From positions 124,001 to 188,000 of the forward strand of contig JAAFIQ010000001.1 of the NCBI GenBank assembly GCA_013298715.1: a stretch of DNA of 64,000 nucleotides, written 5' to 3'. Both the position numbers and the translations under genes were made by a program. Source of the DNA: Bacteroidota bacterium. GTDB lineage: Bacteria > Bacteroidota > Bacteroidia > B-17B0 > Aurantibacillaceae. Positions 25,707-34,042 of the stretch are shown in pieces. A model generated the notes under the pieces. The model was not told the DNA's origin and ran no database searches. It worked only from the letters and a program-made list of their open reading frames with translations. The number at the start of each line of letters is the position of its first letter. Position 1 is the first letter of the stretch.

Positions 25707-26305
25707 CCCTTTTTGACCTTATCCTTATTATTATATAGGGCTTGTTCAATAACCAAAAAAGGCAATAATTGCAAAGCTCTTAATAAAAATCATTTGCAAA
25801 GTGAAATCATACAAAAGCAAATAAATTCTTAAAAAAGACCTACTCTAAAATTTATTGAAAGTAATTAGGGTCTACTCGAATATTAAAAAAATTAACAATA
25901 GCAAGGCTGGATTGAAAAAATTAAAAAATAATCCGCAGGGGTAAATATTACAAATGCTAGTAAGTCTATAAAAAAAGCTTTGCATTAAAATTGACAAATA
26001 TTGCCGCTTTTTATGAATTTTGATTGATGACGGATTTTGTGCGCTGGCCAGTCGCCACGCGGAGCTAGGAAGGCGAGAATTAATTTTTCTTAGAAAATTC
26101 ATCGAGGGGGCTTGTCGTTTTTTTATTTTGCTAACAAAAAGTAATCGTGGCAAAATAAAAATTACGTCGATTGAATTTTCAAAAAAAATTAAGTGCGGGT
26201 GGGCATTCGCGGCGACTTGATTTTTTTGGTACTTTTTTTATTTAAGAAAAAAAGTAGAAAAAGAAAAATTGCTGAGTTTATGAGGAGATGCTAAATAAAC
26301 TTAAT
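25707..26305. other. Gene-free stretch with a structured repeat element
   Basis: No supportable gene is present. The first 300 bp after dut are AT-rich without clear structure. From 26050 to 26262 lies the two-hairpin element described separately. Two predicted frames inside it (26020-26220 plus, 25872-26153 minus) are rejected because they follow the inverted repeats and show no protein-like pattern. Confidence 0.7.
26050..26256. repeat. Structured intergenic element, copy A (nested inverted repeats plus 3' hairpin)
   Basis: Three arm pairs nest in one another: AGTCGCC (26050-26056) with GGCGACT (26211-26217); GAAAATTC-A-TCGA (26093-26105) with TCGA-TT-GAATTTTC (26167-26180); and TTTTTATTTTGC (26120-26131) with GCAAAATAAAAA (26150-26161). 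A second hairpin follows: TACTTTTTTT (26230-26239) with AAAAAAAGTA (26247-26256). The link between the two hairpins reads CTTGATTTTTT, identical to copy B near 33900. It lies between the convergent ends of dut and the DUF5522 gene. Confidence 0.7.
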
Positions 26306-33692: not shown

Positions 33693-34042
33693 AGTTATAA
33701 ACATTGAACGATTCGATTAGTTTGCGAAAATCATTCTCAATAATACTATATTAAACCACTAACTAAAGATGCTTGTAAATTATTATTGAGTATAACTACA
33801 CACAGGTGCGGCAGCGACTGGCGATTTGGTGTGAACCCAGACTTTTTTCCGCCGAGCAGGGCAGACTGTGCGAAAAAAAAGGCAGGGTTGGCAAATCGCC
33901 TTGATTTTTTGTTTCTTTTTCATCAAGGAAAAAGAAATTAAAAAAATTCCATTTTCTAAATAAATCATCTATCACTTTTTAAGTTTGTTTTTAATTTTCA
34001 ACAATAAAAATCAGTTTAATTTTCTTAGCTTAGTAAAACTTT
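33693..34042. other. Gene-free stretch between the AsmA-like and kinase genes
   Basis: The 350 bp hold no supportable gene. They contain copy B of the two-hairpin element (33820-33937) and AT-rich flanks. A predicted minus-strand frame across it (33783-33968) is rejected. The local G+C content of 33801-33900 is well above the surrounding sequence. Confidence 0.7.
33820..33937. repeat. Structured intergenic element, copy B
   Basis: The main hairpin has an outer arm GGCGATTTG (33820-33828) pairing with CAAATCGCC (33892-33900). Inside are AACCC (33834-33838) with GGGTT (33885-33889), and CTTTTTT (33842-33848) with AAAAAAG (33875-33881). Then comes CTTGATTTTTT and a second perfect 10-bp hairpin, TTTCTTTTTC (33912-33921) with GAAAAAGAAA (33928-33937), loop ATCAAG. 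Layout and linker match copy A at 26050-26256. Confidence 0.7.

Follow-up and report, generated by a model that had tools for sequence, protein, structure and literature searches.

Two members of a Bacteroidota superfamily of structure-conserved, probably mobile repeats with a predicted pseudoknot tail

The described systems closest to the repeats reported here are the repetitive extragenic palindromic (REP) sequences, with bacterial interspersed mosaic elements (BIMEs), REP doublets (REPINs) and REP-associated tyrosine transposases (RAYTs); the miniature inverted-repeat transposable elements (MITEs); the BOX elements of Streptococcus, which are modular, structured, intergenic and non-autonomous; and the pseudoknots of the ENE type (element for nuclear expression) and telomerase type, in which a U-rich strand lies on an A-U helix as a U.A-U triple helix. 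We analysed 64,000 nucleotides of the genome of a Bacteroidota bacterium (GenBank assembly GCA_013298715.1, contig JAAFIQ010000001.1; C1:124001-188000 of the host genome, G000), hereafter the window, in which an earlier note made from the letters alone had described two large nested hairpin elements, copy A and copy B.

Copies A and B belong to a large Bacteroidota superfamily of dispersed, structure-conserved repeats, which is real and abundant. We consider it probable, if far from settled, that both are dispersed, non-autonomous mobile repeats and that the fold is what defines their superfamily, which extends throughout Bacteroidota and carries a tail pseudoknot with a third strand. Each element would have nested stems as its body, the closing stem adjoining a conserved tail. 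On the + strand the tail would fold as an H-type pseudoknot, in which CTTGNN pairs with the loop of the tail hairpin, while the T/C tract between CTTGNN and the hairpin would lie on the A/G strand of that hairpin as a third strand.

Compensatory change in bodies and tail

The nested arms and 10-bp hairpin of copy A, and their counterpart in copy B, were present on direct reading (Table 1). In copy A, the outer arms AGTCGCC (26050-26056) and GGCGACT (26211-26217) can be extended to 10 nt at 90%, and the inner arms form a perfect 12-bp stem. The middle arms, noted earlier as 12 bp, are longer and less perfect (26 nt, 77%, including a 17-nt stretch at 88%). On the 3′ side of the body follow CTTGATTTTTTT and the hairpin (26230-26239 and 26247-26256). 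Copy B has inner arms inside its closing arms and is followed by CTTGATTTTTTG and its own hairpin. The RNA fold of copy A reached z = -3.8 (1/200 shuffles equally good), and copy B reached z = -6.1 folded as DNA (0/200 shuffles as good) and z = -2.9 folded as RNA (3/200), so that both hairpin structures exceed chance. The earlier note had ascribed to the two copies one architecture with different stem sequences that carry compensating changes. Common to both are the tail and a closing stem abutting it; the bodies are of different types, and the compensating changes are real within each type, not between A and B.

Three alignments were used: fifteen A-type cores with ranges set by hand (A1), seventeen B-type elements including copy B as L009 (A2), and 92 B-type matches, 91 of them distinct (A3). 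The last were obtained by searching 80 sources (60 fetched regions and 20 loci already at hand) with R1, the covariance model of A2. In A1, 18 of the 43 pairs were doubly changed with pairing kept, and covariation was 0.245 against 0.092 in shuffled alignments, while sliding the columns by 1-3 gave no more than 0.071. A2 had 18/31 doubly changed pairs, which 5/500 shuffles equalled; further pair types showed no excess (254/500 shuffles equal), and three of five pairing measures beat all 500. For A3 the doubly changed pairs rose to 26/31, with a covariation of 0.549 against 0.187 in shuffles, and in both A1 and A3 all five measures lay above all 500 shuffles. This strongly suggests that selection acts on shape rather than on letters, as the earlier note had proposed. 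B-type bodies also keep conserved motifs between their stems, GGTGCGAAC...GTTGG.

When the matches in relatives were compared, bodies of several types preceded a common part, namely the tail CTTGATTTTTTTG and a hairpin with the loop ATCAAG. The general form of this tail is CTTGNN, a T-run, a G and a hairpin with the loop N′N′CAAG. The loop of copy B, ATCAAG (33922-33927), is complementary to its CTTGAT; that of copy A, ATTTAAG, is degenerate as a partner for CTTGAT, and the sister copy L007 has ATCAAG. Among 262 candidate tails gathered without requiring loop complementarity, the loop was complementary to CTTGNN in 240, most of them AT/AT, largely from the choice of pattern. Outside AT/AT, complementarity was found in 29/51 tails (AC/GT 11, TC/GA 8, AA/TT 7, TT/AA 2, CT/AG 1), a number equalled by 0/10,000 shuffles, and class-wide members pair by TGTC/GACA, TGCC/GGCA or TCTC/GAGA instead.

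The length of the T-run follows a rule: measured from fixed anchors, in 271/303 tails it was one less than the distance between the loop and the conserved G of the hairpin (about 110 expected from the margins), and the rule also held in 95/115 tails not obtained by the pattern. A simple correlation of T-run and A-run, with a badly placed stem boundary, was weak. A separate finder put 119/193 tails at the commonest offset (shuffled mean 61, maximum 81). A C within the tract stood opposite a G in register in 25/34 cases (class I 17/25, class II 8/9; L281 is in both classes), compared with 2 and 3 when the tract was slid by one position (class I 2 and 2, class II 0 and 1). This agrees with the register of a parallel third strand, in which T faces A and C faces G. 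The covariation of the loop with CTTGNN, together with the register of the T/C tract, thus predicts that the tail forms an H-type pseudoknot whose third strand makes U.A-U and C.G-C triples. We regard the putative pairing of CTTGNN with the loop as well supported and the triple helix as a good prediction, to which a direct-repeat origin of the tract is a competing account.

Mismatches within the helices point to the strand that folds. Read on the tail strand of 186 cores, G-T outnumbered A-C (32 vs 15), G-A outnumbered C-T (39 vs 11) and G-G outnumbered C-C (13 vs 2), whereas the same classes were even in 323 control stretches (36/35, 38/36 and 6/7). The ratio of G-T to A-C in A3 was 16:2 in the closing stem, 97:23 in the inner stem and 7:2 in the tail hairpin. 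Given this excess of G-T, the folding single strand appears on balance to be the tail (+) strand. Wobble pairs fill 16/709 cells of the A3 closing stem; more would be expected of a typical structured RNA, so that the folding molecule may also be single-stranded DNA (ssDNA).

Distribution, copies and genomic context

The exact tail pattern occurred in 44/87 genomes of the family, and the reversed pattern in 0/87. When one genome of each species was scanned, at least 117 stretches with the pattern were returned; among the 80 listed, 78 were Bacteroidota by name, and the other two were a Fusobacteria metagenome-assembled genome and Orenia. The fetched loci, largely selected for having tails, contained 213 tails (197 distinct; overlapping loci were counted twice) vs 2 in the reversed control. 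With up to 37 candidates scored per family genome and up to 11 per class genome, R1 found B-type elements in 71/87 family genomes (E <= 1e-3), with at least 37 copies each in G074 and G060, and matched 90/295 class genomes (E <= 1e-6) spanning 58/155 genera; some of these weaker class matches may owe most to the tail with its hairpin. At the gathering score, no Rfam family matched the window, nor did any match the element itself in 18 tail loci (19 sources); one Rfam match in these loci, Flavo-1, lay beside an element, not on it. The repeat group is apparently new to description, as searches of the open PubMed Central literature returned none.

Several modules were seen in relatives. In G074 (L203-L211, L307), several copies have an additional palindrome like GATACTTTTGCAAAAGTATC past the tail, sometimes with CCCGATAGCTATCGGG inserted, and a similar inserted module, GGGCTGAGCGTT...AACATTTTTAGCGAAGAGCCAG, in the two different bodies of L206 and L209 suggests exchange of modules between bodies. 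At L302 (G011:C185:63000-72000), six tails are clustered in about 1.8 kb with ordinary-looking genes on either side. The body motif CTGTTTGAGC...GCGAGTT, closed by freely varying stems, recurs in Flavobacterium, Chitinophagia, Pontibacter and others; as RNA it would form a tandem G-A internal loop.

Searched against its own genome, copy A gave 18 match rows, which contain ten long copies, itself included, one of them split in two; the nine others share 76-89% identity with it. Copy B gave 4 matches, with one additional long copy at 93%. Further copies, on whose existence the earlier note had staked its reading, are thus present in the host genome and, by R1, in relatives. The repeat that holds copy A is also larger than had been noted, with terminal inverted repeats (TIRs) at both ends (Table 1). 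Among five copies readable at both ends, 6-bp TAWWTA target duplications were exact in L004, L006 and L008, the window copy (L001) had one mismatch, and L043 had no clear duplication. The inverted repeat ends and the duplications indicate that copy A is carried by a MITE, for which a single mechanical open reading frame (ORF) was listed (93 aa, 25872-26153). No autonomous relative with a transposase was recognised among the end matches (<=2 mismatches) or the ORFs of five candidate regions in this draft assembly of 46 contigs. The shorter A relatives L045, L381 and L380, compared without the L002 rows, lack parts of the body and keep the tail and the right part.

A second MITE family of about 250 bp, TTAGGGTTCACTCAA, is common in the same genome and has a terminal repeat related to that of copy A's MITE. 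Its ends are long and near-identical (TTAGGGTTCACTCAAAA...); eight copies were read and many further end matches were found, at loci including G000:C2:93280-93660, C11:25140-25530 and C12:113250-113620 (L368-L375). Small palindromic insertions were seen within A copies, GCCTGCC...GGCAGG in L007 and AAATTATCC...GGATAATTT in L043 and L044.

The 87 distinct B copies have the left motif ATACGTTRGTAA in 51 cases and TACGTCTNGG in 13 more (<=2 mismatches). To the right of their tails, the flanks of these copies, inspected by eye, were unrelated and had no visible duplication; a GAGTGAACCCTAA-like repeat (<=3 mismatches), of a MITE type also present in the host genome, lay within 60 nt of the tail in 6/87. 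Ordinary MITE palindromes, that is, structures that are a by-product of the inverted repeats of a DDE transposon and whose fold is unselected, would account for these six copies and for the TIRs and target duplications around the host's A copies. We nevertheless consider this explanation quite unlikely, since 81/87 B copies lack the repeat, compensatory change is wholesale and accompanied by conserved internal motifs, and the mismatches are strand-asymmetric with even controls, where a duplex palindrome predicts no asymmetry.

Copy B lies between genes that we take, from their translations, to be AsmA-like and histidine kinase-like. In 20 other genomes of the genus the two genes are likewise neighbours, 16-261 bp apart vs 354 bp in the host, and a tail was found between them in 0/20 of these syntenic relatives; in L324, one tail-like match lay farther upstream, inside the AsmA region. 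Copy A is intergenic, and its neighbours are presumably, from translations, a dUTPase-like gene and a thioredoxin-like gene in opposite orientation. A tail was present within 900 bp downstream of the dUTPase gene in 0/29 relatives, which is weaker evidence because gene order is not kept there. The copies, the absence at related sites and the MITE framework of copy A are the grounds for reading the elements as mobile.

Of 85 pattern-found tails, 83 lay outside ORFs of at least 100 aa and 2 inside; their contexts were convergent (23), divergent (10), tandem on the same strand (31), tandem on the opposite strand (18) and undetermined (1). For the 76 fetched B copies clear of mechanical ORFs, the corresponding counts were 27 convergent, 5 divergent, 24 tandem same-strand and 20 tandem opposite-strand. 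The upstream gene was on the element's strand in 54/83 pattern-found tails and 51/76 B copies. The elements are mostly intergenic, and their orientation is not locked to genes.

This context bears on whether the elements are cis-acting RNA modules at the 3′ ends of genes, either terminators, as the earlier note had suggested, or triple-helix stabilisers of mRNA 3′ ends like ENE. The same-strand upstream genes, the small share of divergent contexts (5/76), the U-rich run directly after the closing stem, the single-strand mismatch asymmetry and the predicted U.A-U triple helix would all suit such modules. We hold them to be unlikely all the same, as tandem copies lie with transcription in 24 cases and against it in 20 (31 vs 18 for pattern tails) and the position is not conserved (20/20 relatives lack an element at the B site and 29/29 lack one downstream of the dUTPase gene). 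The terminator proposal in particular was not supported by these orientations, and a terminator scan, covering loops of 3-8 only, called none at A or B. That the elements form a multi-copy family of trans-acting small RNAs seems very improbable: in its favour, structure is conserved on one strand and B-type bodies keep their between-stem motifs, but some genomes have tens of copies and no position was conserved at the two sites tested; a scan for sigma-70-type promoters is uninformative for Bacteroidota.

Table 1. Features of copies A and B in the window (positions count from the first letter of the window).
Feature	Position	Strand	Basis or remark
Partial extra MITE left arm, immediately upstream of copy A's MITE	25731..25867	+	73% match to L004 left arm
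Left flank TAATTA, resembling a target site duplication	25862..25867	.	Right partner TAAATA 26292-26297, one mismatch
MITE holding copy A, 424 bp; TIRs start GGGTCTACTCG (left) and end GAGTTTATGAGGAGATGC (right)	25868..26291	+	Ten genomic copies aligned with their flanks; ends and target duplications
Body of copy A (A-type), with AGTCGCC/GGCGACT closing its nested stems	26040..26217	+	Arm reading, A1 alignment
Copy A closing stem, 5′ arm AGTCGCCACG	26050..26059	+	5/9 helix pairs doubly compensated
Copy A middle stem, 5′ arm	26080..26105	+	Arm search, covariation
Copy A inner stem, 5′ arm TTTTTATTTTGC	26120..26131	+	Arm search, covariation
Copy A inner stem, 3′ arm GCAAAATAAAAA	26150..26161	+	Arm search, covariation
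Copy A middle stem, 3′ arm	26167..26192	+	Arm search, covariation
Copy A closing stem, 3′ arm; abuts the tail and shares CT with it	26208..26217	+	Arm search
Copy A tail: CTTGAT, T-run, GG, hairpin TACTTTTTTT/AAAAAAAGTA	26216..26256	+	Direct reading
Copy B element, B-type body and tail	33805..33942	+	Covariance model R1, G000:C1:157805-157942, E 3.0e-25
Copy B closing stem, 5′ arm GGCGATTTG	33820..33828	+	Arm search, A2/A3 alignments
Copy B closing stem, 3′ arm CAAATCGCC	33892..33900	+	Arm search, A2/A3 alignments
Copy B tail	33900..33937	+	CTTGAT 33900-33905; T-run and G 33906-33911; S2a 33912-33921; S2b 33928-33937

Candidate movers and the weighing of mobility

Pairs of tails less than 600 bp apart were arranged tails-out (13), tails-in (1) or in tandem (11), which is partly REPIN-like, and the host genome has three PF01797 matches. 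Both observations would fit REPs or REPINs mobilised by a RAYT (TnpA-REP, Y1 HUH), along the lines of the 'atypical secondary structures' of Bacteroidetes and subclass 2.6. Against this, no tail was found at the host's three PF01797 loci; a listing of PF01797 places in 61 family genomes had 103 entries, and the 49 of them that were examined (29 loci at hand, 20 fetched) likewise had none; and the copy-rich G074 (at least 37 B-type copies; 93% complete) had no PF01797 match. One Y1 search used a profile made from the three host proteins, which distant Y1 genes could escape. By eye, no GT[AG]G foot was seen at the closing stem of the window copies. The host gene at L050 (G000:C4:7870-8088), a Y1 transposase gene with a YVHQNP motif that is TnpA-REP subclass 2.6-like, is flanked by inverted repeats around CACGAAAGGATTCGTG, which are distinct from the A and B elements. 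As far as tested, a RAYT as the mover is not supported, and we think this explanation rather improbable. The structured REP-like repeat of the earlier note therefore fits by behaviour, whereas the link to a RAYT was looked for and not found. At L051 (G000:C2:114-362), a Y1 ORF is cut by the contig end, and the gene beside it presumably resembles cas1, judging from its translation.

Other candidates were set aside. Clusters read for integron-like cassette arrays had mixed orientations and no recognisable cassette-like genes, and the genes between outward tails at L063 and L147, considered for an autonomous element, were ordinary-looking and unrelated, judging from their translations. Tandem arrays did not serve as a guide to the unit, as their repeat includes flank outside the element. 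A phage origin was rejected with the tail pattern in just 4 viral stretches.

On the reading we favour, non-autonomous mobile repeats, the elements would move by a trans-acting enzyme that recognises the single strand, as RNA or ssDNA, in its folded form, and the tail may serve as a handle for recognition or protection. The A-type copies of the host additionally ride in a MITE that has inverted repeats of its own. A more speculative proposal, to which we give little credence, is that the elements are analogues of short interspersed nuclear elements (SINEs): many unrelated bodies would share a 3′ triple-helix pseudoknot, which as RNA would be the handle for an enzyme acting in trans, such as a reverse transcriptase or single-strand transposase, that copies and inserts them throughout Bacteroidota.

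Several points weigh against the favoured reading. The mobilising gene was not found, with no neighbouring gene family at more than 6 tail loci, and no precise empty site was aligned. The ends of B copies are less uniform than their fold, 23/87 having neither left motif, and for 9 of the 85 fetched B copies there is an overlapping mechanical ORF of at least 90 aa. Counts treat related copies as independent throughout, and 9/92 rows of A3 repeat sequences among the 17 used to build R1. As regards the tail, most examples came from a pattern requiring AT/AT and long T-runs, so that the pattern-independent support consists of the 29/51 tails outside AT/AT and the 95/115 length-rule tails; 22 of those 51 are noncomplementary, chance hairpins among them, and the CTTGAT of window copy A pairs imperfectly with its own loop. 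A T stands opposite a G in register 18 times (9 in class I, 9 in class II). When the third-strand register was set against a direct repeat of the hairpin arm in 28 interrupted tails, it did better in 10 (e.g. L221, L393, L401, L063, L100, L470), equally well in 10 and worse in 8 (e.g. L397), the register being fixed and the direct repeat given the best of three shifts. A small collection made early, 24 stems around CTGTTTGAGC, had no G-T mismatches and three A-C or C-A.

With these points included, a non-autonomous mobile nature remains the most likely one for the superfamily, and the elements may be non-coding RNAs, as the earlier note had suggested. The observation of the earlier note is confirmed and its interpretation partly supported.

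Significance and comparison with known systems

If the favoured reading is true, an abundant structured mobile repeat exists across a whole bacterial class and plausibly the phylum. Its tail would, in our judgement, be an unusually clear bacterial case of triple-helix covariation, in which pseudoknot pairing and register are kept while the letters change, and would point to an enzyme that recognises it. For annotation, such intergenic hairpins could be named instead of passing as terminators or chance.

Like the REP, BIME and REPIN elements with their RAYTs, the elements are short, intergenic, structured repeats in many copies, single or in inverted pairs, for which a folded single strand is deduced. 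They differ in having longer, multi-stem bodies and a common pseudoknot-like tail, in the GT[AG]G foot not seen in the window, and in the lack of a tail at 49 of the 103 listed Y1 places. Copy A resembles MITEs, including the 250-bp family, in that the 424-bp element around it has TIRs, TAWWTA-like duplications and one listed ORF; unlike in MITEs, the structured unit with its tail also occurs without such repeats (81/87 B copies), and its fold is probably under selection. The elements share with BOX, by description, a modular, structured, intergenic and non-autonomous character, and differ in belonging to Bacteroidota. In contrast to ENE-type and telomerase-type triple helices, they are dispersed bacterial repeats, possibly acting as DNA, whose triple helix is deduced from covariation alone; as in those structures, the prediction places a U-rich strand on an A-U helix beside a pseudoknot.
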